Assembly (NCBI GenBank): GCA_017848795.1
Contig: JAFIHG010000041.1
Coordinates: 1 to 64,000 of the forward strand
Source: Candidatus Nanopelagicales bacterium
GTDB lineage: Bacteria > Actinomycetota > Actinomycetes > S36-B12 > CAIYMF01
Reading direction: 5' to 3'
DNA length: 64,000 bases
Below, piece by piece: positions 410 through 50,544 of the stretch. Each line of letters starts with the position of its first letter. The first letter of the stretch is position 1. The translations under genes were made by a program, and so were the position numbers. The notes beneath the pieces are model-generated. The model was not told the origin of the DNA. It made no database searches and worked only from the letters and a program-made list of their open reading frames with translations.

Positions 410-892
410 TCAGTGGGCGGCGCGAAGCGCCTGCAGCACGACACCCACAGGGATGCTGACGAGGAGCACGCCTACCACGACTTGGAAAGCGAGCAGGAGG
501 CGCCGCTGCGGCGCGTGCCGTGTCGTGAGGAACGCGCTCGCGAGGGCGTACACGAGCAATGCGCAGCCGACGTAAAGCACCGGAACGATGTCGAGGAGCA
601 CGCCGGCGAGCACCGCGATGTTGCCGAGGTTCCACGCGACGTACTCGGCGCCCAGCACGCGTGGACTGCTCCGACCCACCCCGAGCACGGCCTGTCCGAG
701 CCCCAGCACCACTTGCGCTGCACCTGCGACGAGCACGATGTACGCGACGGCCCAGCTGGTGTGGTAGCTCGCGGTCCGCGCACTGGCCGCCGACACGAGC
801 CCCCCGGCAACGATCCACACGGCACCGAGCACGATGGGAACCACACTGTCTGCGGGTATCCGGACTCTGGTCGGAGGGAGCGGGTTCGCCAT
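410..892 (-). CDS. Small multi-pass membrane protein, function unknown
   Basis: This 160-residue protein consists almost entirely of hydrophobic segments. Four or five membrane helices can be seen: about residues 18-38, 47-70, 86-120 (long, perhaps two) and 133-153. A short basic, proline-containing N-terminus precedes them (MANPLPPTRVRIPA). I see no catalytic motif and do not recognise a family. The ATG at 892 is chosen because the hydrophobic pattern starts soon after it. A TetR-type palindrome lies 28 bp upstream, which suggests local regulation. It is transcribed away from the NicO gene. Confidence 0.65.
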   Translation of the reverse strand: MANPLPPTRVRIPADSVVPIVLGAVWIVAGGLVSAASARTASYHTSWAVAYIVLVAGAAQVVLGLGQAVLGVGRSSPRVLGAEYVAWNLGNIAVLAGVLLDIVPVLYVGCALLVYALASAFLTTRHAPQRRLLLAFQVVVGVLLVSIPVGVVLQALRAAH

Positions 893-919
893 GAATCCCA
901 GCCTATTCCGCGCACCGTG

Positions 920-935
920 CTGACCATCCGGTCAG
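920..935. promoter_or_regulatory. TetR-like operator palindrome
   Basis: CTGACC-ATCC-GGTCAG is a perfect inverted repeat with 6-bp arms in the divergent space between the membrane protein at 410-892 and the NicO gene. The half-site GACC/GGTC with a short spacer is common for TetR regulators. No TetR gene lies next to it, so the regulator would have to be elsewhere. Confidence 0.4.
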
Positions 936-1106
936 TACCCGACGCGTGGCTCGGACCGGGTTGCGCAGACATTCGGCGGCCCGCCAGGTGCCCAGCGGCT
1001 GGGCATACCGAACCTTGACCTCGGTGCAGTTGCACATGGATGGCAGCAGCGAGACGTTTGCATCGGCGATGTCCAGCGGTACGGCGACCAGCGGGAGGTG
1101 GCGCGG

Positions 1107-2261
1107 GTGACGGTCGTCGATGCGGCCGCCCGGCGGTTCGCTCCGTCGCAGCGGGGCGGACTGCGCGCGATCGTCCTGATGGCGGTCGTCGTCCTGGGCC
1201 TGACCGTGCTGGGTTGGGGCACGCTGCTCGTGCTGGTCGTACCGAGCGAGTACCAGCTCGGCTCCAGGCAGATGTTCGGCGCCGGTCTGGGCCTGACCGC
1301 GTACACGCTGGGGATGCGGCACGCGTTCGACGCCGACCACATCGCCGCGATCGACAACACCACGCGCAAGCTCATGGCCGATGGGCAGCGGCCGGTCACC
1401 GTGGGGTTCTGGTTCTCGCTCGGGCACTCCAGCGTCGTCTTCGCCCTGTGCGCGCTGCTCGCGTTCGGCATCCGCGCCCTCGCCGGTCAGGTCGAGGACG
1501 ACCGCTCCGCGCTGCACACGACGACCAGCCTCATCGGCACCGCCCTGTCCGGCAGCTTCCTGCTGGTCATCGGACTGCTGAACCTCGTCGTGCTCACCCG
1601 GATCCTGCGCGTCTTCCGCGACCTCCGGTATGGGCACTACGACGAACAGGCACTGGAGGCGCACCTCGCCGGTCGCGGCCTGCTCAACCGGGTGCTGTCC
1701 GGCGCCACCCGGTCGGTGAGTCGGCCGTGGCACATCTACCCGGTTGGTCTGCTGTTCGGGCTCGGGTTCGACACCGCGACGGAGGTGTCGCTGCTCGTGC
1801 TGGCGGGAGGCGCGGCCGCGTTCGCCCTCCCCTGGTACGCCGTGCTCACCCTGCCCGTCCTGTTCGCAGCGGGCATGAGCCTGTTCGACTCGATCGACGG
1901 GTGCTTCATGAACTACGCGTACGGCTGGGCGTTCGCGACACCGGTGCGCAAGGTCTTCTACAACCTCGCGATCACCTCCCTCAGCGTCGTCGTCGCGCTC
2001 GCCATCGGGTTGCTCGAGGTGCTGTCGCTGGCCGGCGAGGAGCTGCACCTCGACGGCCCGATTGCCTGGCTCGGGTCGCTCGACCTGAACGACGTCGGCT
2101 TCGTGATCGTGGGCCTGTTCGTCCTGGCCTGGGCGGTGGCCCTGCTCGTCTGGCGGCTCGGTCGCATCGAGCAGCGGTGGGCGGACGGGGGCCGCCCCGA
2201 CGAGCCGCGTCCAGCGCCCGGCGGTCAGTGTCCCGGGGCGGGCGCCGCGGGCGGCCAGTAG
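1107..2261 (+). CDS. NicO/HoxN-type nickel-cobalt transporter
   Basis: The product (384 residues) is a membrane permease of the HoxN/NixA/NicO class, which imports Ni2+ or Co2+ for metalloenzymes or cobalamin. The family signature is visible at about residues 70-87 as MRHAFDADHIAAIDNTTR (the HX4DH-type metal motif), followed by GFWFSLGHS at about 100-108 and the conserved segment LGFDTATEV near 217. Eight hydrophobic segments fit the family. I use GTG at 1107, because GGGAGG at 1093-1098 sits 8 nt before it; the earlier GTG at 1098 overlaps that ribosome site. The 3' end overlaps the convergent yggS by 37 bp. Ni versus Co cannot be decided, and no cobalamin riboswitch is apparent upstream. 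Confidence 0.9.
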   Translation: MTVVDAAARRFAPSQRGGLRAIVLMAVVVLGLTVLGWGTLLVLVVPSEYQLGSRQMFGAGLGLTAYTLGMRHAFDADHIAAIDNTTRKLMADGQRPVTVGFWFSLGHSSVVFALCALLAFGIRALAGQVEDDRSALHTTTSLIGTALSGSFLLVIGLLNLVVLTRILRVFRDLRYGHYDEQALEAHLAGRGLLNRVLSGATRSVSRPWHIYPVGLLFGLGFDTATEVSLLVLAGGAAAFALPWYAVLTLPVLFAAGMSLFDSIDGCFMNYAYGWAFATPVRKVFYNLAITSLSVVVALAIGLLEVLSLAGEELHLDGPIAWLGSLDLNDVGFVIVGLFVLAWAVALLVWRLGRIEQRWADGGRPDEPRPAPGGQCPGAGAAGGQ

Positions 2262-2974
2262 TAGGCGTCGCTCGTCGGGCGGCGCCCGAACACGGCGGTG
2301 CCCACCCGGACCATGGTCGCGCCCTCGGTGATCGCGAGGTCGAGGTCGCCGCTCATGCCCATCGACAGCTCGTACGCGGCCTGCGCCCCCGCGATCTCCG
2401 CGGACAGCACCGCGTCCCGGATCTCACGCAGCCGGCGGTAGCTGGCGCGCACTGCCGCCTCGTCGGCGGAGAACAGCCCGATCGTCATCAGCCCGCGTAG
2501 CCGCAACTGCGGTGCCGCCCCGACGTGCGCGACGAGGTCCAGGGCGCCGGGCGGCGCGACGCCGTACTTCGACTCCTCGCCGGACGTGTTCACCTGCACG
2601 AAAACGTCGAGTGGCGCACGCTCCGCCGGTACGCGCTTGGCGACCTGGTCGGCGAGGTCGGTGCTGTCGATGGACTGGATGCAGCTGGCGTGCCGCAACA
2701 CCTGGTTGATCTTGTTCTTCTGCAGGTGCCCGATGAAGTGGGCTTCATGCGGTACGACCGCGAGCGCATCGGCCTTCTCGACCAGTTCCTGCGCCCGGTT
2801 CTCGCCGATCAGGTCGTACCCGGCGCGCAGCGCGACGAGGATCCGCTCGGCGGGGACGGTCTTGGTCGCGAGCAGCAGCGTCACGTCGGCGGGGTCACGG
2901 CCGCAGCTCCGCGCGGCCCGGCCGATGCGTTCGCGCACATCGGTGAGCGCTTCGAGAATCGACGACTCCGTCAC
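2225..2974 (-). CDS. YggS/PLPBP-type pyridoxal phosphate homeostasis protein
   Basis: This 249-residue protein belongs to the YggS/PROSC family, single-domain alanine-racemase-like TIM barrels that bind PLP and help balance the cellular PLP and amino/keto acid pools. The PLP lysine is K38 in LLLATKTVPAE. Other family blocks are visible: GENRAQEL, HFIGHLQKNKIN, SIDS, QVNTSGEESKYG, GLMTIG, LSMGMSGD and VRVGTAVFG. I place the start at GTG 2974, since GGGAGG lies 5 nt upstream; an ATG at 3001 would add nine residues. In many actinobacteria yggS is in the division cluster, but here it stands alone, divergent from a polymerase gene. Confidence 0.9.
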   Translation of the reverse strand: MTESSILEALTDVRERIGRAARSCGRDPADVTLLLATKTVPAERILVALRAGYDLIGENRAQELVEKADALAVVPHEAHFIGHLQKNKINQVLRHASCIQSIDSTDLADQVAKRVPAERAPLDVFVQVNTSGEESKYGVAPPGALDLVAHVGAAPQLRLRGLMTIGLFSADEAAVRASYRRLREIRDAVLSAEIAGAQAAYELSMGMSGDLDLAITEGATMVRVGTAVFGRRPTSDAYYWPPAAPAPGH

Positions 2975-3070
2975 CCTGGCCTCCCGACCCGACCGTCTCA
3001 TACCGCGCTCAGCGTTGCTGCGATCGGCAGTCGGTCGGCTGACCGGAGACCTCCGGCCACCGCGCAGAAT

Positions 3071-4777
3071 GTGGCGGTGTCGCTGGTGGACGAACTCGCC
3101 GCGGTGGGCGTACGGCGCGGTGCTCCCCTCGCGGTGGCCGTGGTGCCGCGGCAGGGCCTGGCTCTCGCGTGGCATGGCGGCAGTCGCCAGGTACCGGCGC
3201 AGGAACCCACCGAGGTGGTACGGGCGCTCACCGCGCTCGAGCCCCGATGGGTGTGGTGGTCCGCGCGGCAGACCGCGGCGCCGCTGCTGGACGCCGGCGT
3301 GCGCCCGGCGACCTGCTGGGACCTCGCGGCCGTCGCCCGGCTGCTCGACGGCACCCGTCGAGACGATCCCGCGACGGTGTGGGCCGCTGCCCGCCAGTTA
3401 CCCGAACCGGAGCCGCTGCGCGAGCTGGACCTGCTGGACCTGCCGCGCGAGGACGGCGGCCCGGTGCACGCCGACGGTCAGCTCAGCCGGGAGTGGGCCG
3501 GGGGCGCCTGGGTCCGGTCGCTGGGCACCGCGGAGTGCTGGGCACAGTTGGCCCTCGACGCGCGATCCGCCCAGCACCGGCGCCTGCTGGCGCTGCCCGA
3601 CTCCCGGCCGGCGCCGCGCGGTCTGGCGCTGCCCCTCGCGACCGCGCACGCGGAATCGGCCGCCGCGCTGCTCGCGGTCGAGCTCGAGCAGGAGGGACTG
3701 CCCGTGGACCGCGACGCGGCGGCGGCCCTCCTCGGCAGCGCCGTCGGGCCCCGCCCGGTGGACGAGGCGCATGCGGCTGCGCTTCGCGCGCAGCGTGACG
3801 AGACGGTACGGCGCCATTTCCCCGGCACCGACGCCGACCTGCGCAATCCGGCGCAGGTACGGGCGTTGTTGCGCGGCCTCGGTCTGGAGCTGCCCGACAC
3901 CCGCTCCTGGCGGCTGCGCCCGCACGCCGACCTGCCGGGTGTCGCGGCACTGCTCGACTGGCGGCGAAAGGAGCGGATCGCCACGACGTACGGCTGGGGC
4001 TGGCTCGACGCGCACGTCGGTCCCGACGGCCGGCTGCGCGGGCGCTGGAGCGCAGCCGACGCGGCGGCAGGCCGGATGACCGCCGGTTCCGGGCTGCACA
4101 ACCTGCCGGCGGACCTGCGCGCGGCGGTGCGCGCCGAGCCCGACCACGTCCTGGTGCGGGCCGACCTCGGTCAGATCGAGCCGCGTGTCCTCGCCGCGGT
4201 GTCCGGCGACCCGGCACTGGCGGCAGCGGCGGCCGCCTCCGACATGTACGCCCCGGTCGCGGCGCACCTGCGCTGCGAGCGGTCCACCGCCAAGGTCGCC
4301 GTCCTCGCCGCCATGTACGGGCAGACGACCGGCGCCGCCGGCGCCGCCCTCGCCGACATGCGCCGCGCGTACCCGCGGGCAATGGCGTACCTCGCCGTGG
4401 CCGAACAGGCGGGCCGGGAGGGCCGGCCGGTCAGGACGTACGGCGGGCGGCTGCTCGCCGCCCATGTCCGCTCGCAGGACTGGGACCTGCGCGCCCGCGG
4501 ACGGTACGTCCGCAACGCGATGGTGCAGGGCGCGGCGGCCGAGTTGTTCAAGGCCTGGACCGCGACCGTACGCGCCGCGCTCGTCACGGCCGGGGGGCGG
4601 ATCGTGCTCTGCCTGCATGACGAATTGCTCGTGCACGTACCCCGTGACGGCGAGCAGCAGGTACGGGACGTGCTCGACCGGTCCCTGCAGTCGACGGCAT
4701 CCTGGTGGGCGGCCGGCAGCCGCGTGCGCTTCGTCGTGGAGGTCGGCGCGGGCGAGAGCTGGGTCGCAGCGCGGTGA
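3071..4777 (+). CDS. Family-A DNA polymerase-like protein (bifunctional 3'-5' exonuclease/polymerase type)
   Basis: The product (about 568 residues) is a short PolA relative lacking the 5' nuclease domain, of the actinobacterial kind annotated as bifunctional 3'-5' exonuclease/DNA polymerase. The polymerase half is clear: motif A as VRADLGQIEPRVLA (about residue 362), motif B as RSTAKVAVLAAMYGQ (about 403) with its R, K and YG, and motif C as LCLHDELLVHVP (about 513) with the HDE triad. The N-terminal third should hold the exonuclease fold, but I do not see intact DxE catalytic motifs, so proofreading may be lost. The start is uncertain: GTG at 3071 or 3077, neither with a good ribosome site. 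A housekeeping polA is expected elsewhere, so this is probably an auxiliary repair polymerase. Confidence 0.82.
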   Translation: MAVSLVDELAAVGVRRGAPLAVAVVPRQGLALAWHGGSRQVPAQEPTEVVRALTALEPRWVWWSARQTAAPLLDAGVRPATCWDLAAVARLLDGTRRDDPATVWAAARQLPEPEPLRELDLLDLPREDGGPVHADGQLSREWAGGAWVRSLGTAECWAQLALDARSAQHRRLLALPDSRPAPRGLALPLATAHAESAAALLAVELEQEGLPVDRDAAAALLGSAVGPRPVDEAHAAALRAQRDETVRRHFPGTDADLRNPAQVRALLRGLGLELPDTRSWRLRPHADLPGVAALLDWRRKERIATTYGWGWLDAHVGPDGRLRGRWSAADAAAGRMTAGSGLHNLPADLRAAVRAEPDHVLVRADLGQIEPRVLAAVSGDPALAAAAAASDMYAPVAAHLRCERSTAKVAVLAAMYGQTTGAAGAALADMRRAYPRAMAYLAVAEQAGREGRPVRTYGGRLLAAHVRSQDWDLRARGRYVRNAMVQGAAAELFKAWTATVRAALVTAGGRIVLCLHDELLVHVPRDGEQQVRDVLDRSLQSTASWWAAGSRVRFVVEVGAGESWVAAR

Positions 4778-6115: not shown

Positions 6116-7153
6116 TCAGCGCCCGGCGGTCCAGTCGAGCAGCCGCCCGACGTCCCACGTGGTGACGATCCGCTCCGGCGGGATGCCCGCGCGGACCGCG
6201 CGGGCAGCGCCGTACGGCAACCAGTCCAGCTGCCCCGGCGCGTGCGCGTCGCTGTCGAGCGAGAACAGACAGCCGGTCTGCAACGCCAGCTCCAGCAGGC
6301 GCATCGGTGGGTCGAGCCGCTCGGGGCGGGAGTTGATCTCGACGGCGACGTCGTACTGGCGGCACGCCTCGAACACCAGCTCGGCGTCGAACTCGCTCTC
6401 CGGCCGGGTGCGCCCCGTACGGCCCTGCCCGCTCACCATCCGGCCGGTGCAGTGCCCGAGCACGTCGGTGTGCGGGTTCGCCACCGCCAGCACCATCCGG
6501 CGGGTCATCGCCTCGGCGTCCATGCGCAGCTTGGAGTGCACGGAGGCGACGACCACGTCGAGCCGCGCGAGCAGCTCCGGCTCCTGGTCCAGGGTGCCGT
6601 CCTCGAGGATGTCCACCTCGATCCCGGTGAGGACCCGCAACGGGGCGAGCCGCTCGCCCAGCTCCGCGACGACGTCGAGCTGGCGGCGCAGCCGCTCCGC
6701 GGTCAGCCCGCGGGCGACGGTGAGCCGTGGTGAGTGGTCGGTGAGTGCGACGTACCGACGACCCAGCGCCGCCGCGGTGCGCATCATCTCCTCGATCGGC
6801 GAACCGCCGTCGGACCAGTCGGAGTGGGTGTGCAGGTCGCCCTGCACCAGCGCCATGAGCTCTTCGCCGCCGCTCGCCACCGGTCCGGTGGCGGCCTGCT
6901 CGAGGTCCCGCAGGTAGCCCGGCGTCTCCCCGCCCACCACCTCCGCCACGATGCCGGCGGTCACCTCGCCGAGGCCCGGCAGCTCGGTGAGCGTGCCCGC
7001 GCGGGCCCGCGCGGCGACCTCCGCTCCCGGCAGTGCGGCGAGCGTGGCGGCCGCACCCCGGAAGGCGCGTACGCGGTACGTGGAGGCGTGCGCCCGCTCG
7101 AGCAGGAAGGCGATCCGGGCGAGCGTGTCGGCGGGATCCGCTTCGGAGGTCAC
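6116..7153 (-). CDS. PHP-domain phosphoesterase with N-terminal helix-hairpin-helix
   Basis: This 345-residue protein resembles the C-terminal half of bacterial PolX without a polymerase domain. Residues about 10-75 form a helix-hairpin-helix DNA-binding region (LTELPGLGEVTAGIV), and from about 100 a PHP metal-dependent phosphoesterase follows. Metal ligands are visible in GDLHTHSDWSDG (H108, H110), LTDHSPR, GIEVDIL, ASVHS, GHCTG and SLDSDAHAP. These nine-ligand sites usually bind three metal ions. A DNA 3'-end or AP-site processing role is likely but inferred. It is divergently placed from the TMEM175-like gene, 23 bp apart. Confidence 0.88.
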   Translation of the reverse strand: MTSEADPADTLARIAFLLERAHASTYRVRAFRGAAATLAALPGAEVAARARAGTLTELPGLGEVTAGIVAEVVGGETPGYLRDLEQAATGPVASGGEELMALVQGDLHTHSDWSDGGSPIEEMMRTAAALGRRYVALTDHSPRLTVARGLTAERLRRQLDVVAELGERLAPLRVLTGIEVDILEDGTLDQEPELLARLDVVVASVHSKLRMDAEAMTRRMVLAVANPHTDVLGHCTGRMVSGQGRTGRTRPESEFDAELVFEACRQYDVAVEINSRPERLDPPMRLLELALQTGCLFSLDSDAHAPGQLDWLPYGAARAVRAGIPPERIVTTWDVGRLLDWTAGR

Positions 7154-7176
7154 GGCGCCACGGTAATCATTCTCCC

Positions 7177-7764
7177 GTGACGACCGGGCGACTCGAGGCG
7201 TTCAGCGACGGCGTACTCGCCGTCATCATCACGATCATGGTGCTCGAGCTGCGGGTCCCGGACGGCGACACGCTCGGCGCGCTCGTCGGCTCGACCGGCA
7301 CGCCGCTGCTGACGTACCTGTTGAGCTTCGTCTACGTCGCCATCTACTGGAACAACCACCACCACATGTTCCAGCTCGCCGGTCGCGCCACGGGGGCGGT
7401 GCTGTGGGCCAACCTCGGGCTGCTGTTCTGCCTGTCGCTCGTCCCGTTCACCACCGCGTGGATGGACGACAGTGACCTTGCCCGCACGCCGGTGGCGGTC
7501 TACGGCGTGAACCTGCTGGCGTGCGCACTGGCGTACCTGGTGCTGCAGGCGGTCATCGTGCGGTCGCCGGAGGGCGCCCGGCTGCGGGCCGCCGTCGGGT
7601 CGGACTGGAAGGGCAAGTCCTCCCTCGTGCTGTACCTGTGCGGCATCGTCGTTGTCATGTTGATCGGCGCGCGCCTGGGAGTCTGGCTCGCGCTCGCGTG
7701 CTTCGTCGCGGTGGCAGTGATCTGGCTGGTGCCCGACCGGCGGATCGCCCGCACGCTGCAATGA
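7177..7764 (+). CDS. TMEM175-like (DUF1211) potassium channel protein
   Basis: This 195-residue membrane protein begins with RLEAFSDGVLAVIITIM, the FSD signature of transmembrane helix 1 that forms the selectivity filter in bacterial TMEM175 K+ channels. Six hydrophobic helices are visible: about residues 8-25, 45-63 (LLTYLLSFVYVAIYWNNHHH), 78-97, 110-130, 150-168 and 172-188. Bacterial versions have one repeat of six helices and assemble as tetramers, so the length is normal. The start is GTG at 7177, just after ATTCTCCC. The gene is divergent from the PHP protein. Confidence 0.85.
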   Translation: MTTGRLEAFSDGVLAVIITIMVLELRVPDGDTLGALVGSTGTPLLTYLLSFVYVAIYWNNHHHMFQLAGRATGAVLWANLGLLFCLSLVPFTTAWMDDSDLARTPVAVYGVNLLACALAYLVLQAVIVRSPEGARLRAAVGSDWKGKSSLVLYLCGIVVVMLIGARLGVWLALACFVAVAVIWLVPDRRIARTLQ

Positions 7765-7775
7765 GGCTTGCCAAT

Positions 7776-7814
7776 GTTACTGACGGGTAGCATCATGGTT
7801 ACCGACGGGTAACC
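7776..7814. promoter_or_regulatory. Operator-like double site upstream of the acyl-CoA dehydrogenase gene
   Basis: Two copies of TTAC(T/C)GACGGGTA follow each other at 7777-7789 and 7799-7811. The second is extended into GGTTACC-GACG-GGTAACC (7797-7814), an inverted repeat with perfect 7-bp arms. The ribosome site GGGAGG and the ATG of the acyl-CoA dehydrogenase lie directly downstream. The layout suggests a dimeric repressor, probably a TetR-family fatty-acid regulator; the identity of the regulator is not shown by the sequence. Confidence 0.6.
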
Positions 7815-7830
7815 ACCGCCGGGAGGAACC

Positions 7831-9666
7831 ATGGGCCACTACCGCGCCAACCGCCGCGACATCGAGTTCAACATCTTCGAGGTGTTCGATCGCGGTACGC
7901 ACCTGGGCACCGGGCCGTTCGCCGACGTCGACGAGGACACCGCACGGGAGATCCTCGCGGAGGTGGAGCACCTCGCCGAGGGCCCGCTCGCTGCCTCCTT
8001 CGCCGACGCCGACCGCAACCCGCCGGTCTACGACCCTACGACCTCCTCGGTGACGATGCCGGACTCGTTCCAGAAGTCCTTCCGGGCCTTGATGGACTCA
8101 GGGTTCTACAACCTCGACCTGCCGGTGCACCTCGGCGGCCCCGGCGCGCCCGCCTCACTGCGCTGGGGCGCCAGCGAGATGCTCCTCGGGGCGAACCCGG
8201 CCGCCTTCATGTACATGTCCGGGCCGGGCTTCGCGGCGATCCTCGACCACCTCGGCAACGCCGACCAGCAGGCCCTCGCGCGGCTGATGATCGAGCACCA
8301 GTGGGGCGCCACGATGGTCCTCACCGAGCCGGACGCCGGATCGGACGTCGGCGCCGGGCGCACCCGGGCCGTACCGCAGCCCGACGGCAGCTGGCACCTC
8401 GATGGCGTCAAGCGCTTCATCACCTCGGCCGAGCACGACCTGGCCGACAACATCATCCACCTCGTGCTGGCGCGTCCGCAGGGTGCCGGGCCCGGCACCA
8501 AGGGCCTGTCGCTGTTCGTCGTCCCCAAGTACCTCGTCGACCTCGGCACCGGGGAGCTCGGCGCGCGCAACGGCGTGTACGTCACGAACGTCGAGCACAA
8601 GATGGGCCTGAAGGCCTCCACCACGTGCGAGCTCACCTTCGGCGAGCGTGCCCCGGCCGTCGGGTGGCTCGTCGGCGACGTCCACGATGGCATCGCGCAG
8701 ATGTTCAAGGTCATCGAGTACGCGCGGATGATGGTCGGCACCAAGGCGATCGCGACGCTCTCGACGGGCTACCTGAACGCGCTCGAGTACGCCAAGAACC
8801 GGGTGCAGGGCGGGGACCTCGCGCAGTACCAGGACAAGAGCGCGCCCCGGGTCACCATCACCCATCACCCCGACGTGCGCCGCTCGCTGATGCTGCAGAA
8901 GGCCTATGCCGAGGGCATGCGCGCCCTGGTCCACTTCACCGCTTGGTGGCAGGACCAGATCGCGCTGGCCGAGGCCGGCGTGCCCGACGTCGACCGCGAG
9001 CTCGCTGAGTCCGTCAACGACCTGCTGCTGCCGATCGTCAAGGGGCTCGGCTCGGAGCGCTCGTACGAGCAGCTCGCCCAGTCGCTGCAGACGCTCGGCG
9101 GCTCGGGCTACCTGCAGGACTACCCGATCGAGCAGTACCTGCGCGACGCGAAGATCGACACGCTGTACGAGGGCACGACCGCCATCCAGGGTCAGGACCT
9201 GTTCTTCCGCAAGATGGTCCGCGACCAGTTCAAGGCGTACACCGCACTGACCGGTCAGATCGCCGAGTTCGCCAAGGACGACGACGGCGCAGGTGCCCTC
9301 GCCCGCGAACGGGCGCTGCTCACCCAAGGCCTCGAGGACGTCCAGGGCATCGTGGGGTCGCTCGGCGGTTTCGCGATGCGCAGCCAGCAGGACACCACCG
9401 AGCTCTACAAGGTCGGGCAGAACACCACCCGGCTCGTCTTCGCCCTGGGAGAGCTGGTGGTCGGCTGGCTGCTGCTGCGGCAGGCCGAGGTCGCGCTCAC
9501 GGCACTGGCGTCCGGGCCCGGTCCGCGCGACGAGGCGTTCTACCGGGGCAAGGTCGCGGCGGCGCAGTTCTTCGCCCGTCAGCGGTTGCCGCTGCTGAGC
9601 GCGGAGCGCGCCATCGTGGAGGCGACCGACAACGAGCTCATGGAGCTGGCCGAAGACGCCTTCTGA
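7831..9666 (+). CDS. Acyl-CoA dehydrogenase, long form with C-terminal extension
   Basis: The product (611 residues) is a FAD-dependent acyl-CoA dehydrogenase that introduces the 2,3-double bond in the first step of fatty-acid beta-oxidation. The FAD/substrate block is [13 protein letters not shown] at about 162-174. The segment [18 protein letters not shown] (about 436-453) carries the usual catalytic glutamate position in YEGT. Length and the C-terminal extension (residues 460-611) match the FadE-like 600-residue subgroup found next to electron-transfer genes in other bacteria. GGGAGG lies 5-6 nt before the ATG. The strong palindromes just upstream indicate regulated expression. It stands alone here, with no thiolase or hydratase beside it. 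Confidence 0.93.
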
Positions 9667-9682
9667 TCCGCGACCCGGCCGG

Positions 9683-10963
9683 TCAGCGGAACCGGCCGTG
9701 CGCGTACCTCAGCTTCACCTTCGCGCGGCCGTGCCGTGCCGTCTGCGGGACCGCGACGCGGTACACCCCCGCGCGGACCCGGACCTTGGCGAACCGGAAC
9801 CGTGCCTGCGCCCCGGCGGTTGCCGTCGCCAGCCGGTGGAAGCCGTGCGTGCCGCGGCTGCGGAACGCCAACCGGACCGTGTCGTGCCGGGTCAGCCCCT
9901 TGGGCCGGACCTTGCCGGCGAATCGCACGCGGGCGCCGGAACGTGCGCGTACGTGGTCGACGTGGACGCGCAACATCACGTGCGGCGCGGCCGACGGCGG
10001 GGCGGGATCGTCACCCGGGGGATCCGGCGGCGGGTCGACCGGCGGATCACCGTCGCCGATCCTGACGAAGGCGCGTTCGAGCAGGCCGTTGAACTGGTCG
10101 CTGCGGCTCTCGATCGCACCGGACGTGGTGAGTTTGCCGCCCACCGCGAGCGGCGTGCGGTGGTGCGCCGGACGCAGGCTGCCGGTCACCTCGGACCCGG
10201 TCGCCTCGCGCACGACCGGGCTGCCGCCGGCGTCCCAGGTCGTGACCGAGAGTGTCACCGTATGCCCGGCGCGGGCGCACACCAGGCGGTACCAATGGTC
10301 CGGGGTGACGCGCGGACGGGCGGTCACCGTGATGGTCCCGGACCGACCTTTGATCCGGCACACCGGGTAGCCGCCGTCGACCTGGATCTTGTACTGCGTC
10401 ACCTCGCCGAACAGGCCGCGCTGGATCACGTTGTTCCCGTCGTCGTGGCTGCCGCCCGCTTTGGATGCCGACTGCGCAGCGAGGCGGACGTCCGCACCGA
10501 AGACGAGGTCGCCGCCGCCGGGATCGAGCCGGTCGGGGCCGTCGCCGTCGCCGCGCACCCGGACCACCGCGCGCGGACCGGAGGCGGCCGGGTCGAAGCC
10601 GGGGAAGCGGGCCGCGGTGTCGCCCGCACGCCCCGTGACGGCGAGCAGCCGGCTGCCGTCCTGCGTCACCACGTCGACCCGCAGCGGCGCGGTGCCGCGG
10701 TTGCCCACCGCTGCCCTCGCGCCGTCCGGCTCCACCGCGAGCACGAACTGCCCGACGGGCGTGTCGGCGGCAGCGGCGGACCTCGCCGCGCCTCCCTCGC
10801 CCGGCGTGCGTGGGCCGTCGCCCGTCGCGACAGCGCCGCCGGACCAGGCGCCGCCCAGCAGTACCAGCGCGGTGCTCGTCACGACCGCCGCCCGGAGCGG
10901 GCGACGAGCGGCAGCGGGATGCGGCAGCACCCGGCCAGCCTGCCGCACCTCGGGCGATCCCAC
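9683..10963 (-). CDS. Secreted LamG-like (concanavalin A-like) protein with C-terminal beta domain
   Basis: This 426-residue protein has an N-terminal basic stretch and hydrophobic core (RRPLRAAVVTSTALVLLGGAW) that looks like a signal peptide. The middle (about 130-290) resembles a LamG/concanavalin A-like jelly roll: TQYKIQV, HWYRLVCARAGHTVTLSV and a FNGLLERAFVRIGDG end. A proline-rich linker (PPVDPPPDPPGDDPAPP) leads to a C-terminal domain of about 95 residues, LRVHVDHVRARSGARVRFAG to KVKLRYAHGRFR. That domain looks related to the C-termini of the products at 12727 and 56364. The role is unknown, probably carbohydrate or surface binding. It converges on the dehydrogenase gene and is divergent from marR. 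Confidence 0.75.
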   Translation of the reverse strand: MGSPEVRQAGRVLPHPAAARRPLRAAVVTSTALVLLGGAWSGGAVATGDGPRTPGEGGAARSAAAADTPVGQFVLAVEPDGARAAVGNRGTAPLRVDVVTQDGSRLLAVTGRAGDTAARFPGFDPAASGPRAVVRVRGDGDGPDRLDPGGGDLVFGADVRLAAQSASKAGGSHDDGNNVIQRGLFGEVTQYKIQVDGGYPVCRIKGRSGTITVTARPRVTPDHWYRLVCARAGHTVTLSVTTWDAGGSPVVREATGSEVTGSLRPAHHRTPLAVGGKLTTSGAIESRSDQFNGLLERAFVRIGDGDPPVDPPPDPPGDDPAPPSAAPHVMLRVHVDHVRARSGARVRFAGKVRPKGLTRHDTVRLAFRSRGTHGFHRLATATAGAQARFRFAKVRVRAGVYRVAVPQTARHGRAKVKLRYAHGRFR

Positions 10964-14301: not shown

Positions 14302-14479
14302 GCGGTGGCGCGCCCGTCGGGGTGTGAACGACCGGGCGAGCACGCGGTGGTCGAGCGCAGTCGAGTCACTCTGGGCTTGGTGGCGCGCCCGCCGGCGCGT
14401 GAAAGACCGGGCGAGTACTCGGTGGTCGAGCGCAGTCGAGACCACGTCAGTGATCATGGTCTCGACTCGGCTCGACCCA
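14302..14479. repeat. P1 repeat cluster, two tandem ~75-bp units and an inverted core
   Basis: Two direct units begin GGTGGCGCGCCCG (14304 and 14379) and run through ACCGGGCGAG to GGTGGTCGAGCGCAGTCGAG (14346-14365 and 14421-14440). An inverted core, TGGTCTCGACTCGGCTCGAC, follows at 14458-14477. The stretch 14254-14529 holds these repeats and no gene. Confidence 0.88.
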
Positions 14480-14529
14480 CGCGGGGAGGCCGGTCTTCAG
14501 CGCCCGACGGGTGGCCGGGCGTTCCGCCT

Positions 14530-18263: not shown

Positions 18264-21200
18264 GTGTCGTCGCTGTTGCGCCACCTCGGCGCGTTCTGCG
18301 CGCAGCGCCGACTGCTGGTGCTGCTCGTCTGGCTGCTGATCGCGACGGCCAGCGTGCTGGTGCTCAAGGCCGTACCGGACACCACCAACAACGACCTGAG
18401 CCTGCCGGGCACGGACAGCCAGGCCGCCACCGACCTGCTCGCCGCGGAGTTCCCGCCGCAGCAGAACGGCGGCAGCCCGATCGTGTTCCACGTCAAGAGC
18501 GGCAAACTCACCGGCGACTCGGACACAAAGGCGATCCAGGCGTCGGTCAAGGCGATCGGCAAGCTGCCCCACGTCTACAGCGCCAGCGACCCCACCGCCA
18601 ACCCGCAGGCCGGCCTGATCAGCAAGAACGGCCAGACAGCGTTCAGCACCGTGCTGATGGACGTCGGCACCGCCGACCTCACCCCCGAGCTGGCCCGGTC
18701 GGTGCTGGACGCGGCTGAGCCGGCCCGGCAGGCGGGGATGGAGGTGGAGGCCGGGGGACCGATCGGCAGCGTGCTCTCGCCGTCGGACACCGGCGACTCC
18801 GAACTGATCGGCATCATCGCGGCGATCATCATCCTGACGTTCACCTTTGGCGCGCTCGTCGCCATGGGCATGCCGATCCTGCTCGCGATCCTCGGTCTGC
18901 TGGGAGCGCTCGCCGTCGTACGGGTCGTCGGCATCTTCGTCAACATCGCCTCGACCGGCCCCACCCTCGCCACGATGATCGGCCTCGGGGTCGGGATCGA
19001 CTACGCGCTGTTCCTCGTCACGCGGCATCGCGACAACCTGCGCGCCGGTCTGGAACCACACGACTCGATCGCCGACGCCGTCGCCGGCTCCGGGAGCGCG
19101 ATCGTCTTCGCCGGCACCACCGTCGTCATCGCCCTGCTCTCCCTGATGGTCGCGGGCATCCCGCTGGTCACCTCGCTGGGGTACGCCACCGCCATCGCCG
19201 TCGCCGTCGCGGTCATCGCGGCGATCACCCTGCTCCCCGCGCTGCTCTCGCTCGTCGGGCGCCGCCTCAACGCCCTTCGGCTGCCGCGCTGGCTGCACCC
19301 GGAGCCGAAACCGGAGGGCAAGGGGCTCTGGGCCCACTGGGCCGCACTCGTCAGCCGGCACCGGTTCGCGGCGACGGTCCTGGCGCTCGCCATCCTGGTC
19401 CCGCTGGCGATCCCGTTGCTGTCCCTGCGCCTGGGGCAGGAGGACGTCGGGGTCACGCCGACCACCACTACCGAGCGGCGCGCCTTCGACATCATGAGCA
19501 AGGACTTCGGACCGGGCTACAACGGCCCGCTGCTCGTCGCCGTCTCCCTCGACCCGAAAGCCGCGCCCAGCCAGCAGTACCAGGACCAGTACAACCAGGC
19601 CACCGCGCTGAAGAACAGCCTCACCAAGCAGCAGCAGCAGCTGCAGGAACAGGCCGACCAGCTGCAGGCCCAGGAGGAGGAGCTGACCCGGCAGGGCGAC
19701 GCGCTGCAGGCGCAGAAGGCACAGCTCGAGGCACAGCAGAAGCAGCTGGAGAAGCAGCAGCACCAGCTCGAAGCGCAAGCGCGAACGCTCGCCGCCCAGG
19801 AGGCGACGCTGCGCGCACGGCAGGCGTCACTGCAGCGCCAGGCCGACCAGCTGCGACGAGAGGGCACGGCGCTGCGGGCGCGCGCCGGCGAGCTGGCCCG
19901 CAAGCTCGTGACCCTGCGGCGCGAGGACGTCCGGCTGGCCCGCGAGATCAGGCAGGCGCCGACCCCGGCCGAACGCGCGAAGCTGCGGGCTGAACGGCGC
20001 GCCGTACGTGCCGACATCCGAAGGACGCGGTCCGCGCTGCGCGGCCTGGCGCCCAAGGCGCGCCGGCTGCTGGCACAGGCCCGTTCGCTGTCCCAGCAGG
20101 CGGTCGCGCTGAAGCAACAGGCGGACCAGCTGCAACGCGAAGCCGATCAGCTGCAGCGGCAAGCGGAGGCGCTCGCGGCGAAGGGACAGTCGCTGCAGCA
20201 GCAGGCGAACCAGTTGCAGAAGCAGGCCGACAAGCTGAACAAGCAGGCCGCCGCGCTGCAGAAGCAGGCCGACAAGCTCAACAAGCAGAAGAAGTCGCTG
20301 CAACAGCAGCAGAAGCAAGCGGAGGCGCTGCAGGACCAGATCACGGCCGAGCTCACCAAGGCCGGCGGCGACGACCGCGGTACGGACCCACGGCTGGTCT
20401 CGCTGCAGGACGCGCTCGCGACACCGCAGGACGTCACCCTCGTGTCACCGCCGAACATCAGCAAGGCCGGCACCGCGGCCACCTTCACGGTCATCCCGAA
20501 GACGCGGCCCGCGGACCCGGTGACCGCCGACCTCGTCACGCAGCTGCGCGAGCAGGTGATCCCGCCGGCACTGACCACGGCGGCGGAGAAGACCGCCGAG
20601 GACCAGGACATGAGTCCGTCCGCCAGCCCGTCCGCGAGCCCGTCCGGCAGCCCGGCGGCGGCCGCCGCGGGCAGTCCCGCCACAGTCGAGCAGGCGGCGC
20701 TGTCCGCATCCGCTCCGGGCTACGGCAGCGCCGTGGCGTACGTGGGCGGCAGCACGGCGGCGAACGTCGACCTCGCAGCCAAGATCACCCGGCAGTTGCC
20801 GCTCGTCATCCTCACCGTGCTGGCACTGTCGTTCCTGCTGCTGATGATCGCCTTCCGTTCACTGCTGATCCCGCTGCAGGCGGCGATCACCAACCTGCTG
20901 ACCGCCGCCGCGTCCTTCGGTGTGCTCACCGCGTGCTTCCAGTGGGGCTGGGGACTGGACCTGGTGCACCTGGACAGCCCGTACGGCACGGTGCCGATCG
21001 CCTCGTACGTCCCGCTGATGATGTTCGCGGCCCTGTTCGGGCTGTCGATGGACTACGAGGTCTTCTTCGTCAGCCACGTGCAGCACTTCCACGCCGGCGG
21101 CGACAGCGTGCGCGATGCCGTACGCCGTGGCCTGGCTGCGAGCTCCCGGGTGATCGTCGCCGCCGCCGTCATCATGTTCTGCGTCTTCGCGAGCTTCGTG

Positions 21201-21924: not shown

Positions 21925-22377
21925 ATGCGTCGACCCCTCTCCGCTCTCGCGCTCCTCGTCACGATCCCGCTGCTCGGAGTGATACCGACCGCCACCGCTG
22001 ACGCCGCGCCGGCGGCGAAGCGCACCGTCGCCAAGGCGGGCTCGTACGTGGGGAACTTCTACACCTCGAAGGGCAAGCGGCTCGAGCAGTTCACGTTCAA
22101 GGTGAACAAGAAGGGCACCAAGCTCAACAAGTTCCGCGCCCTGGTGAACGTCACGTGCGGGTCGTACCCCGTCAGCGTCGCGACGCACCCGCTGTCGTTC
22201 TCCGGCGTGAAGATCAAGCAGAACGGCTCCTTCAAGAGGACCTGGAATCCGGCCGGGGCCGACGGCAAGGTCACGATCAAGGGTTCGTTCAAGGGTAAGA
22301 AGCTGCGTACCGGCACCCTCGACTACCGCGCTGGGGTCTGCGTGCGTACGGCCCAGCTCAAGGCCACCCGCCGCTGA
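21925..22377 (+). CDS. Small secreted lysine-rich beta protein
   Basis: This 150-residue protein has a clear signal peptide (MRRPLSALALLVTIPLLGVI, cleavage near ADAAPA). The mature part is basic and predicted all-beta, with alternating strands such as EQFTFKVNKKG, GVKIKQNGSFKRTW and GKVTIKGSFKGKKLRTGTLDY. Two cysteines (in NVTCGSY and AGVCVRT) could form a disulphide. I do not recognise a family. It starts 31 bp after the MMPL stop on the same strand, so it may share that transcript. Its size and location recall MmpS partners of MmpL proteins, but no sequence similarity is claimed. Confidence 0.72.
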   Translation: MRRPLSALALLVTIPLLGVIPTATADAAPAAKRTVAKAGSYVGNFYTSKGKRLEQFTFKVNKKGTKLNKFRALVNVTCGSYPVSVATHPLSFSGVKIKQNGSFKRTWNPAGADGKVTIKGSFKGKKLRTGTLDYRAGVCVRTAQLKATRR

Positions 22378-22381
22378 TTCC

Positions 22382-22442
22382 CGCGTCCCTGCTCGAAGCG
22401 TCGTTATCTGGCGCAGATAGCGACGCTTCGAGCAGGGACGCG
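22382..22442. repeat. Palindromic element P2 between convergent genes
   Basis: CGCGTCCCTGCTCGAAGCGT and its inverted copy ACGCTTCGAGCAGGGACGCG frame a 61-bp palindrome with 29-bp arms (one mismatch) around a 3-bp centre. It lies between convergent genes, so it can also serve as a bidirectional terminator. Related copies are at 25918 and 34005. Confidence 0.92.
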
Positions 22443-22453
22443 AGGAGTCGAGG

Positions 22454-24280
22454 TCAGGGACGCAGGCCGAGGGCGCTCGGCAGGTTGGTGATACCGCCGA
22501 CGATGCTGATGTCGGAGTCGATGGACTTGCCGCCGCTCACTCCGCCTCCGCCAGCGGACACGCCCGCAGTCGTGCGGATTCCGACGTCGACCGCCCCGTT
22601 CGCGCCGACGGTCACGTAGATGCCCTGCTCGGCGCCGCCGATCCGCAGCGGGCCGGCGTTGGCACCGACCGAGACACCGGCCACGATCGTGAGCTCGCCG
22701 GTGCGGACGTTCTTGTTGATGTAGCCGAACGGGTTGAGCCAGGGGCTCACGCCCTCGATGCGCAGCTTGAAGTTCTCGCAGTCGATGACGACCGACACGA
22801 CCTTGGCGGACAGCCCGAGCGAGCTCGGCGCGTCCGAGCACGGTCCCGTCTCGCCCGCCTGCAGCGTGCCGTTCTGCACCTCGCCGCGTCCCGCGGCGGG
22901 GAGCGGATTGGGGTCGCAGACGGCTGCGTACTGCACCCCTTCTCCGACGAGCAGCACGATGTTGCCCGCCAGGGCGAGCCGCGCCTGGGCCATGACCAGG
23001 TCGTACGCGGGCGCAGCCTTGAGTTCGTGGGCGATCGCGGTCAGGCGTTCGTAGAGGGCGCTGGTGTAGTCGCGCTGCGCCTTGTCGAACGACAGCAGCG
23101 CCGGATGGTACCCAGGGCAGTCCTTGATGAGCCCGTCGCCGCCCCCTGGTGCCACCTTCCAGTAGTCCCGGAGCTCGGCCTGGCGGCGGGACGCAACTCC
23201 CCACATGGCGTTGAGGTCCGGGTCCATCATCCCGCTCGCTGCCGCGACCAGATCCTGGGTGCGCCGCTTGGTGAGCGGCGACAGTGTCTTCAGATGCGCG
23301 GCGTACCGGACGGCAGCGTCGTACACGGTTTGCTGGGCGGCCACCATTGCCGCGATGGCGTCCTGCTGCATCGCCAGGAACGCCGGACGCACTTCCTTGC
23401 CTGGCACCCGGTAGATGTAGTTCGGGATCACTGGACGCTCGCCCTTGTCGAGCTGGATCACCTCGACACTCGGCAGCCGGGTCTGCACCCGGGGCGGCGG
23501 CGGGGTCATCACCTTGCTCTTCTTGGTGACGCCCTGCCGGCGCGCGCCGAGGAACATCATGTCCGCGGCCTTCTTCGTCTTGCCGGTGCAGAGCAGGGCG
23601 AGTGCCTGGTTGGTGCTCGCCTCCCGCAGCAGCGGGGAGCGCTTCACCGCGGCCTTCGCCGCCTTCTGCGCGGGCTTCCACTTGCCCAGCGCGAGTTGCG
23701 CGTACGCGACGTTGTTGTCGAGCACCGCGCGCGCCGGGATGCCGAACGGCGGCTTCTTCGGCGCCTTGAGCTTCTTGGCCGCGGCAAGCAGCGCGAGCGC
23801 CTCGTTCGGCATTCCGAGATCGGTCAGCACCGGTGCGAGCGCGATCAACGGGGTCGGGCTCTTGCGCTTGCGGTCGTGTGCTCGCCGCAGCGCGGCGACG
23901 GCGGCTGTCGGCTTGCCGACCGCGATCGCGGTGACCGCGTCCTGCATGGCTACCGCGGGCTTCTTGTACGCCTTGCTCTTCGCGAACTTCTTGCGCGCCT
24001 TCTTGCTCGTGCGTTTGGCCAGGAACGCGTCGATGCTGCGCAGTGCCTGTTTCGTCGAAAGCTTCTTCGCCTTCGGCTTCTTCGCGACCGTGCAGAGCTG
24101 CTTCTTCAGGCCGGGCAGCTTGCCGGCGAACGTCGCGGCGGTCGGCACCTCCTGCGCGTCCGAGAGGGCGATGATCCCGCTCCCGCCCCTGTCCAGCGGA
24201 CCGGCCTGCGCCGGCGCGATGGTCGCGGCCGCGAGAGCTCCGGTCGCGAGCAGCACGAGAGCCGTGCGGTAGTGCCTCAT
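22454..24280 (-). CDS. Secreted TPR-like protein, function unknown
   Basis: This 608-residue protein has a signal peptide (RTALVLLATGALAAATIAPA, cleavage near AQA). Residues about 60-240 are helical, rich in Lys and Ala, with repeats like AVAALRRAHDRKR, NEALALLAAAKKLK, NNVAYAQLALGKWKPAQKAAK and NQALALLCTGKTKKAADM, which look like degenerate tetratricopeptide repeats. The middle is helical, and the end (about 500-608) is glycine-rich with repeated VGANAG/VGANG/SAGGGG motifs. The ATG at 24280 is chosen because the signal peptide starts there. No enzyme motif is seen. It is divergent from the DHA2 exporter. Confidence 0.72.
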   Translation of the reverse strand: MRHYRTALVLLATGALAAATIAPAQAGPLDRGGSGIIALSDAQEVPTAATFAGKLPGLKKQLCTVAKKPKAKKLSTKQALRSIDAFLAKRTSKKARKKFAKSKAYKKPAVAMQDAVTAIAVGKPTAAVAALRRAHDRKRKSPTPLIALAPVLTDLGMPNEALALLAAAKKLKAPKKPPFGIPARAVLDNNVAYAQLALGKWKPAQKAAKAAVKRSPLLREASTNQALALLCTGKTKKAADMMFLGARRQGVTKKSKVMTPPPPRVQTRLPSVEVIQLDKGERPVIPNYIYRVPGKEVRPAFLAMQQDAIAAMVAAQQTVYDAAVRYAAHLKTLSPLTKRRTQDLVAAASGMMDPDLNAMWGVASRRQAELRDYWKVAPGGGDGLIKDCPGYHPALLSFDKAQRDYTSALYERLTAIAHELKAAPAYDLVMAQARLALAGNIVLLVGEGVQYAAVCDPNPLPAAGRGEVQNGTLQAGETGPCSDAPSSLGLSAKVVSVVIDCENFKLRIEGVSPWLNPFGYINKNVRTGELTIVAGVSVGANAGPLRIGGAEQGIYVTVGANGAVDVGIRTTAGVSAGGGGVSGGKSIDSDISIVGGITNLPSALGLRP

Positions 24281-24418
24281 CTGTCGGTACTCCCCATTCG
24301 CGCTCGGCGGTGATGCGGGGCACCGTAGCAACGTTCTACTGCGCCGTACAGCAACCGCTCGGGGCGGTCACCGGTTCGGTCGGCAGGGCCGGGGCACCGC
24401 TGCCGTAGCGTCGCCGGC

Positions 24419-25917: not shown

Positions 25918-25984
25918 CCCCGTGTCCCTGCTCGAGATGTCGCTATCTGCGCCGGATAACGACGTTTCGAGCAGGGACACGGGG
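25918..25984. repeat. Palindromic element P2, second copy
   Basis: CCCCGTGTCCCTGCTCGA and TCGAGCAGGGACACGGGG are the outer arms, with inner arms GTCGCTATC/GATAACGAC. It is preceded by a tandem run of CCCCGTGTC (25902-25926). It lies between the DHA2 exporter and the nitronate monooxygenase gene. Confidence 0.9.
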
Positions 25985-34004: not shown

Positions 34005-34069
34005 CGCGTGTCCCTGCTCGAATCGTCGCTAACTCGGCGAGTTGACGACGTTTCGAGCAGGGACACGCG
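34005..34069. repeat. Palindromic element P2, third copy
   Basis: CGCGTGTCCCTGCTCGAA and TTCGAGCAGGGACACGCG are the outer arms of a 65-bp imperfect palindrome; the centre is GCTAACTCGGCGAGTTGAC. It lies between the HExxH protein start and the subtilase stop. Confidence 0.92.
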
Positions 34070-34083
34070 GTCCTGGAGGTAGG

Positions 34084-40880: not shown

Positions 40881-41168
40881 AGTCGTCGGTCGAGCGCCGT
40901 CGAGACCATGAGCACCGAAGTGGTCTGAGTCGAAAATAGCCGGGCCGAACGCTGGGTGCCCGCGACCGCAGCCGGATTTTCCACCGTCCAGGGCGGGTCG
41001 AAGGGCCCGGGGTGCTGCTCCGAAAAACCGGACGCAACCATCCGTTGGTCGAGCGTAGTCGAGACCATGATCACCCACGTGGCGTCGACTACGCTCGACC
41101 ACCGAGTACTCGCCCGGTCCTTCACGCGCCGACGGGCGCGCCGCCCGGCCCAGAGTGACTCGACGGCG
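40881..41168. repeat. P1 composite repeat with extra ~90 bp, up to the dnaB stop
   Basis: Cores occur at 40886-40906 and 41043-41066, and an inverted core GTCGACTACGCTCGACCACC is at 41083-41102. The segments 40901-40935 and 41029-41074 match the 33.2-kb locus, but 93 bp separate them here instead of 3. The right end (41103-41165) is an inverted copy of the ~75-bp P1 unit. The stretch 40810-41172 contains the vapBC promoter and this element and no gene. Confidence 0.88.
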
Positions 41169-43779: not shown

Positions 43780-43979
43780 GGCACCTCCTCCGACCCGTCC
43801 TGTCGATCCGCCCGTACGTGTGTACGAGGCACGGGATCGATGATCGTGCAGGCCTGTGACAGTGCTGCCGCGTCCGCGGCCCGTGCCGAGGACTTCCCCC
43901 ACCGCCAGGTCACGGCGGGGAACGTTAGGGATGAGGGCCGCGACGCGCCAAAGGATCGATCTTGGATCGTCCCGGCGGC

Positions 43980-44045
43980 TGTGGACAACGTCGTGGACAG
44001 CGTGTGAACCGCGCCGAGCGGGGCGGTTCACAGTGTTGTGGACAA
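43980..44045. promoter_or_regulatory. DnaA-box-like cluster with hairpin upstream of dnaB
   Basis: TGTGGACAA, the complement of the actinobacterial DnaA box TTGTCCACA, occurs at 43980-43988 and 44037-44045, with a weaker CGTGGACAG at 43992-44000. Between them GTGAACCGC (44004-44012) and GCGGTTCAC (44023-44031) form a perfect 9-bp stem. The rest of 43780-44232 shows no gene. Confidence 0.6.
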
Positions 44046-44232
44046 CCCGGGGATAACCGGACGAAAACCCCCATAACGTACCGCTGACCTGCGGCGATGC
44101 TTCACACACCCTGGGGAGGAAAAATAGTTGGTCCGGCGTTCCAGGGCGCGGACGCGCGGGCCGGTCGGAAGGAGCGCGGCGCTAGCGGCGGCGCCGTACC
44201 GGCCCGCGACGCCCGCCTGGCACAGTGAGCGG

Positions 44233-49376: not shown

Positions 49377-49413
49377 CCGACGCTCTTGGATGGCGGCGCT
49401 CCGAGGCAGCGCG

Positions 49414-50544
49414 GTGAGCGCGCACGGCCCGGTGACGGTCCGGCCGATCACGGGCGCGGAGCACCTGGCGTACGCGCGCACCCGGCCCGCGGTGTCGTTC
49501 CTGCAGCTGCCCAGCTGGGCGGGGGTCAAGGCCGACTGGCGGCACCAGAGCCTGGGCTGGTTCGAGGACGGGGAGCTGGTCGGGGCGGGCCTGGTGCTGC
49601 TGCGCCAGGTGCCGCGGCTGCCGCGCTTCCTCGCCTACCTCCCGGAGGGTCCGGACCTGCCCTGGGAACGGATCACGGACCTCGGACACTGGCTCGACCC
49701 GCTCGTCACGCACCTGCGCCGGCGGGGGGCGTTCGCGGTGAAGATGGGCCCGGCCGTGCCCGTACGGCGCTGGGAGCCGGCCACCTTGAAGGCCGCGGTC
49801 GCCGACCCGCAGGTGACCCGGCTGCGTGAGGTGCCGGCGGACTGGACCGGCCCCACCGGGGCGCACCTCACCGCCGAGCTGCAGCGGCTCGGATGGCGCC
49901 GGCAGGCGGACACCGGCGCCGGGTTCGGCGACGTGCAGCCGCGGTACGTCTTCCAGCTCGCGCTCGCCGGCCGCAGCCTCGAGCAGGTGTTCGCCGGGTT
50001 CAACCAGCTGTGGCGTCGCAACGTGCGCAAGGCCCAGAAGGCGGACGTCGAGGTGAGCCGTGGGGGGTACGACGACCTGCCCGCCTTCCACGAGGTGTAC
50101 GTCGAGACGGCGCGGCGCGACGGGTTCACCCCGCGCGGGCTCGTGTACTTCCAGCGGATGTGGCACGCGATGGCGGCGGAGGACCCGGACCGGCTCACGC
50201 TGTTCCTGGCCCGGCACGAGGGCCGGCTGCTGGCGGCGACGACGCTGGTCACGGTCGGCGACCACGCGTGGTACTCGTACGGCGCGTCCACCACCGAGGG
50301 CCGCGACGTACGGCCGTCGAACGCGGTGCAGTGGGCCATGATCGAGCACGCGCACGCCGCCGGGTGCGCGGTCTACGACCTGCGCGGCATCAGCGACACC
50401 CTCGACCAGAACGACCCGCTGTTCGGACTCATCGGCTTCAAGCTCGGCACCGGTGGGTACGCCCAGGAGTACGTGGGGGAGTGGGACCTCACGCTGCGCC
50501 CGCTGCTGGCGCGCGCGGTCCGGGCCTACCTGTCCCGGCGGTAG
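49414..50544 (+). CDS. FemX/FemAB-type peptidyltransferase
   Basis: The product (376 residues) is a FemAB-family aminoacyl transferase, which adds amino acids from tRNA to lipid II or peptidoglycan side chains. Two GNAT-like halves are visible: SFLQLPSWAGVKADWRHQSLGW with GAGLVLLRQVPRLPRFLAYLPEGPDL, and later FNQLWRRNVRKAQKADVEV, ARHEGRLLAATTLV and YDLRGISDTLDQNDPLFGLIGFKLG. GTG 49414 has GAGG eight bases upstream; ATG 49390 is the alternative. The alanine-racemase-like gene that commonly follows femX is displaced 1.2 kb downstream by a toxin-antitoxin-like pair. Confidence 0.9.
   Translation: MSAHGPVTVRPITGAEHLAYARTRPAVSFLQLPSWAGVKADWRHQSLGWFEDGELVGAGLVLLRQVPRLPRFLAYLPEGPDLPWERITDLGHWLDPLVTHLRRRGAFAVKMGPAVPVRRWEPATLKAAVADPQVTRLREVPADWTGPTGAHLTAELQRLGWRRQADTGAGFGDVQPRYVFQLALAGRSLEQVFAGFNQLWRRNVRKAQKADVEVSRGGYDDLPAFHEVYVETARRDGFTPRGLVYFQRMWHAMAAEDPDRLTLFLARHEGRLLAATTLVTVGDHAWYSYGASTTEGRDVRPSNAVQWAMIEHAHAAGCAVYDLRGISDTLDQNDPLFGLIGFKLGTGGYAQEYVGEWDLTLRPLLARAVRAYLSRR

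Follow-up and report, generated by a model that had tools for sequence, protein, structure and literature searches.

The window, that is, the whole 64,000-nucleotide stretch of a Candidatus Nanopelagicales contig that was analysed, encodes an MMPL-family (RND) transporter whose PC domain carries, at residues 437–699, an insertion of about 262 residues predicted to form a rigid antiparallel coiled coil of two helices. This hairpin occupies the β1–α1 loop, a site that differs from that of the mycobacterial coiled coil (after β2), and it arose separately from the mycobacterial coiled-coil domain (CCD), being convergent in architecture. The protein would act as a proton-driven MMPL exporter with the rigid arm of its PC domain as a wall-penetrating spacer or docking arm, a reading to which a probability of about one half can be given.

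The reading frame, whose features are collected in the table, matches Pfam MMPL (PF03176) in two stretches (E 9e-74; 248.8 bits, the cut-off being 20.5), and hydropathy and fold matching agree on an RND fold made up of 12 TM helices and a pair of porter loops. Its fold superimposes on those of MmpL3, MmpL4 and MmpL5 with Z 32–35 over about 650 residues, and its nearest PDB relatives by sequence are MmpL3 (1e-49), MmpL5 (about 1e-17) and MmpL4 (about 1e-13). MmpL3 is the trehalose monomycolate exporter; its alignment with the window protein covers the C-terminal half, but it has no hairpin. Identity as an MmpL3 orthologue was rejected, since the window protein scores 202 bits on the equivalog model NF052608, with a cut-off of 1400 and a control (L104) at 1770. 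The Asp-Tyr pairs of TM4 and TM10, which serve as the proton relay in MMPL transporters, are shared with mycobacterial MmpL4, MmpL5 and MmpL10, as is the MMPL fold. The Ser/Pro-rich linker is unique to the window protein among the nine aligned, and the C-terminal tail differs in length from those of the homologues.

Table. Features of the window MMPL gene and its product (positions in the window).
Feature	Position	Strand	Basis
MMPL-family RND transporter ORF, 1209 aa	18264..21893	+	GTG start behind GGGAG
TM4 Asp-Tyr pair, D246-Y247	18999..19004	+	invariant in nine aligned homologues
TM7, residues ~366–393	19359..19442	+	hydropathy; helix 367–381 in AlphaFold2 model
PC-domain β1, residues 423–428, directly before the insertion	19530..19547	+	AlphaFold2; alignment with hairpin-less relatives
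Predicted hairpin N-arm, residues 437–564, 128 aa	19572..19955	+	AlphaFold2; heptad periodicity
Predicted hairpin turn, residues 565–567, inside RQAPTPAERA	19956..19964	+	AlphaFold2 domain model
Predicted hairpin C-arm, residues 568–699, 132 aa	19965..20360	+	AlphaFold2; periodicity; 21-nt DNA tandem repeat
PC-domain α1 (709–719), β2 (724–727) and β3 (738–745), after the insertion	20388..20498	+	AlphaFold2 and alignment
Ser/Pro-rich linker, residues ~779–815	20598..20708	+	alignment
TM8, residues ~841–879	20784..20900	+	hydropathy
TM10 Asp-Tyr pair, D930-Y931	21051..21056	+	invariant in the same nine-homologue alignment
Low-complexity C-terminal tail, ~170 residues	21381..21890	+	sequence; alignment

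The segment 19563–20360 (residues 434–699) is open, in frame and inside the Pfam MMPL match. AlphaFold2, applied to the domain together with nine homologues, predicts helices at 437–564 and 568–699 with pLDDT mostly 86–97; in the full-length model, the helices reappear at 437–564 and 568–698 with pLDDT of about 67–86, and the mean of 63 for the whole model is a modest confidence that counts against the preferred explanation. The power at a period of 3.5 residues is 61.5 in the N-arm, reached by 5 of 5000 composition-preserving shuffles, and 123.5 in the C-arm, reached by none of 5000 (shuffle mean about 10 in both cases). In each arm, one heptad position is 0.81–0.88 ILVMFWY and every other position at most 0.14; Gln often follows three residues past the hydrophobic position, and Ala is abundant. 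Leu at the heptad positions and the tip proline P568 are invariant across the nine aligned homologues. Moreover, VIA-align superimposes the domain model on coiled-coil arms of Smc (Z 15.7, rmsd 2.7 Å, 237 residues; in a second match, Z 14.5, 2.6 Å, 252 residues), which supports antiparallel packing of the hairpin; SMC arms share this two-stranded geometry but belong to an unrelated protein in another compartment, so that the likeness is one of shape. MmpL5 hairpins are absent from the best 50 VIA-align matches, a list too short to be evidence against similarity.

The lengths of the two arms provide a further line of evidence. Counting the N-arm from the end of GPL to the tip proline and the C-arm from the tip proline to AGGD, N/C lengths by lineage are 131/117, 138/124, 145/131, 149/135 and 152/138. 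They covary with r = 0.95 over 15 sequences, and none of 10,000 permutations gave so constant a difference, although the rows are related and their independence is therefore overstated; N-arm minus C-arm is 13–15 in most of the 15 rows and 8 or 10 in the others. Only arms that pair with one another, as those of an antiparallel hairpin must, would be expected to change in length together. The sequence-only reading had proposed an MMPL transporter with an antiparallel hairpin of about 265 residues between TM7 and TM8, all of which is borne out, the single-chain models giving a helical hairpin and not a disordered or globular region. Other details needed adjustment: its two arms stand, although at 128–132 residues instead of about 110–130; the LxxQ part of its LxxQAxx heptads is strong in both arms, whereas regular Ala is found mainly in the C-arm; and RQAPTPAERA (at PTP) is indeed the sole predicted helix break, but not the sole proline site, since there is also GLAPKA, P597. 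The expected reach of 16–19 nm agrees with the present value of about 19 nm per arm, at 0.15 nm per residue.

The position of the insertion distinguishes it from the mycobacterial coiled coil. In the window protein, the elements of the PC domain follow in the order β1 (GPLLVAV), hairpin, α1 (DPRLVSLQDAL), β2 and β3. In proteins of the mycobacterial MmpL4/5/10 type (loci L091–L099), the order is β1, α1, β2, coiled coil and β3, read in the sequence as NPELLMVESD, IDKIAKAVFRVPGI, ARVQTITRP, hairpin and FISPDGKSVRFII, and mapping onto the solved MmpL4 agrees with a coiled coil after β2. The claim that both lie in the same loop thus holds for the TM7–TM8 loop, the PC domain and the general architecture, but neither for the insertion point nor for descent. 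In a tree of the shared core, 12 hairpin proteins group together (SH-aLRT 100), surrounded by actinobacterial MMPL proteins without hairpin, and nine mycobacterial coiled-coil proteins form a separate clade (SH-aLRT 100), so that the core phylogeny called for by the sequence-only reading sets the two apart. Forcing both into a single clade costs 124.6 log-likelihood units (p-AU about 1e-64), in a tree of the quick kind with long branches; the difference in insertion site is independent of it. The separate origin follows from the different insertion point together with the separate core clades. By its TIGR00833 (actII-type) score (184 bits, with a cut-off of 874.7 and a mycobacterial control, L092, at 1084), its clade, its insertion site and its lack of the MmpS partner that most members have, the window MMPL falls outside the mycobacterial CCD group; it may work similarly.

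The same element occurs on eight named MAG contigs. Of 197 genomes searched in the window's class, 5 gave strong matches at the level of the long hairpin, each of them from its own order, and a search within that order found such matches in 12 of 166 genomes, from five families; the class also holds mycobacteria (G049 and G003, with many MmpL and MmpS genes), but in another order. A search of 396 genomes of the phylum returned, besides the window, seven genomes from beyond the class, one of which (G358, locus L186) gave a reading frame that did not show the hairpin and was left out of further analysis. The viral contigs searched contained no relative, and the plasmid search gave only hairpin-less MMPL proteins covering about 60% of the query. 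In a tree of 50 proteins, the 18 long-hairpin proteins, from several families and more than one class, form one clade (support 100) in which all members carry the hairpin. Its sister group has shorter inserts at the same site and one member without insert, the segments spanning 130–244 residues compared with about 59 where no insert is present, and the next groups are hairpin-less. Within that range, L194, L197 and L198 have Gln/Glu-rich inserts (segments of 244, 134 and 130 residues), which are possible intermediates in hairpin growth.

Hairpin-less actinobacterial MMPL proteins (Streptomyces type, MmpL13-like) and the order's own type B paralogues are about 40% identical to the window protein in the core, but have 50–65 residues where the window protein has about 330. 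In type B, the flanks of the insertion are kept (PATAP..GDPRTQDPRL) and the site is empty, as in IATAPEGATGPGDPRTQDPRL. Insert size varies widely: L151 has about 30 residues at the site, the homologues of the window hairpin 248–291, and L080 and L140, with an enlarged tip, 414. In these last two (6699–10259 and 882–4385, respectively, both on the minus strand), proline breaks recur every 33–36 residues or so near the tip (QPTDPA, LSPQG, SDPA, LSPAD, TDPVV), a region that is perhaps a helical bundle. Empty, short and long inserts at one site, together with 21-nt tandem repeats that persist in the DNA of the window hairpin, fit growth by heptad duplication.

The host is probably a monoderm without mycomembrane, since it lacks Emb, MmpS, an MmpL3 orthologue and Omp85, a conclusion drawn from gene markers. 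Emb arabinosyltransferases number zero in eight hairpin-carrying genomes and three in each of two mycobacteria, the Corynebacterium control also being positive; MmpS (PF05423) is absent from the host genome, which is 98% complete, compared with 6 and 12 copies in two mycobacteria, and from the related genomes tested, save one weak match (24 bits) in G001. No MMPL paralogue of the host groups with MmpL3 in the core tree, and Omp85 was not found in the host genome, with positive controls. The suspicion that the host lacks a mycomembrane, raised from the letters of the DNA, is therefore in line with these markers. A FemAB-family gene (49390–50541, +) and a bifunctional transglycosylase/transpeptidase PBP (58720–60813, −) are peptidoglycan genes of the usual sort and fit a wall of Gram-positive type.

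In 18 neighbourhoods, near-identical lake MAGs apart, the transporter has no recurring neighbour family, so that the window MMPL probably acts without a dedicated operon partner; an MFS-type gene lies near homologues in three loci, at varying distance, and no conserved neighbour hints at the substrate. The adjoining reading frames encode secreted proteins of 150 residues (21925–22377, +) and 625 residues (22454–24331, −), neither with a Pfam match nor conserved beside homologues. Between this small frame 3' of the MMPL gene and the convergent 625-residue orphan sits the first of three copies (22382–22445, 25921–25984 and 34007–34070) of a 64-nt near-perfect inverted repeat, CGTGTCCCTGCTCGA...TCGAGCAGGGACACG, a terminator-like or REP-type element. 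Elsewhere in the window, a dispersed repeat with the core GGTCGAGCGCAGTCGAGACC occurs in both orientations at 226, 286, 14329, 14404, 33134, 33203, 40067, 40878 and 41037, with 126-nt arms (14356–14481 and 41043–41168) that are 89% complementary across 26 kb, and the DnaB replicative helicase (41176–44109, −) is split by an intein that has a LAGLIDADG domain.

As a spacer or docking arm, the hairpin would project about 19 nm past the porter domain, to some 24 nm above the membrane for a porter as tall as that of MmpL5, and in a monoderm envelope would enter the peptidoglycan and probably cross a large part of it. There, it could hold, dock or guide the exporter relative to the wall or a wall-borne partner, while the conserved Asp-Tyr proton relay would drive the movement of an amphiphilic substrate; by analogy with MmpL4/5/10, the exporter would probably work within an MMPL trimer. 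Variation in length (248–291, and 414) and in net charge (−38 to +20, depending on the lineage) speaks against an exact ruler and against docking at a fixed charged site, and a conserved tip charge as a docking site for teichoic acid or wall was rejected as a family feature given that range of charge. A spacer or docking arm is judged the most likely explanation, a trimeric conduit the second and a functionless expansion the third.

Alternatively, the three hairpins of a trimer might form a six-helix tube conducting substrate through the wall, as a functional twin of the mycobacterial CCD. This is a possibility to be held tentatively, on the unlikely side. MmpL4, MmpL5 and MmpL10 also carry such a long hairpin with antiparallel arms (CCD/PD3) in their PC (PD2) domain, within the TM7–TM8 loop, and those of MmpL5 and MmpL10 trimerise into tubes, CCD-driven MmpL10 trimers forming with no stated need for MmpS (PMC12501195, PMC12183618, PMC12346298); MmpL10-type members may do without MmpS. 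The lumen of the mycobacterial coiled coil is described as lined with Met and its tip as hydrophobic (PMC12501195). However, window-type hairpins contain 0–0.4% Met, compared with 9–12% in three MmpL4/5-like mycobacterial hairpins (1.4% in a fourth, L094), lack Cys and end in a tip that is charged or polar, neither hydrophobic nor aromatic; they have a single hydrophobic seam per arm, where a six-helix barrel would be expected to need more. Moreover, the window-type hairpin occurs with no MmpS, in a host without Emb, and, being attached elsewhere, it may have another geometry above the trimer axis. The single seam, low Met, absence of Cys and polar tip accord better with a self-contained rod than with one third of a six-helix tube.

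It is improbable that the hairpin is a stretch of Gln/Ala-rich repeats that has expanded in a permissive surface loop, with no specific role other than to be soluble and extended: the DNA repeats, the low-complexity composition and the differences in length and charge between lineages speak for it, but the hairpin is kept in 18 of 18 members of a well-supported clade, its arm lengths covary, and its heptad Leu and tip proline are invariant. Homology with the mycobacterial cluster I CCD, by descent or transfer, has in its favour the same domain and the same general shape; it is contradicted by both the insertion site and the tree, in the closest relatives this site is either empty or holds a short insert, and the composition differs, all of which make it very improbable. 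The chance of a frameshift, an assembly error or a chimera is negligible, as the frame is single and open, the homologues with long hairpins that the search recovered place the same element in independent assemblies, and nothing was found in favour of an artefact.

Returning to the spacer or docking arm, its dimensions exceed those of MmpL5: each window arm has 128–132 residues, compared with 186–196 for the whole MmpL5 insert, which measures 12.5–13 nm (PMC12346298, PMC12501195), and the tip of MmpL5, with its coiled coil of 13 nm, stands about 18 nm above the membrane (PMC12501195). In the literature searched, which had subscription papers mostly outside its scope, no such insertion was found described outside mycobacteria, and MMPL annotation leaves it unreported. 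The cited MmpL papers treat the coiled coil solely as a means to the mycomembrane and disagree on its reach, the tip being embedded in that membrane according to PMC12346298 and the coiled coil too short for it according to PMC12501195. A bolder version, in which a trimeric MMPL exporter of monoderm actinobacteria, evolved independently of mycobacteria, conducts substrate, or hands it on, through the entire peptidoglycan layer along a stalk of about 19 nm, is doubtful, at odds of roughly three to one against; if true, it would export across the wall in cells that have no outer membrane. A coiled coil that is longer and evolved a second time, independently, in organisms where the mycomembrane appears to be missing makes spanning the wall separable from reaching an outer membrane, and arms of this kind are not bound to the mycomembrane. 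Relatives whose inserts at this site range from none through short and long to very long offer a ready-made series for testing the function of the arm.
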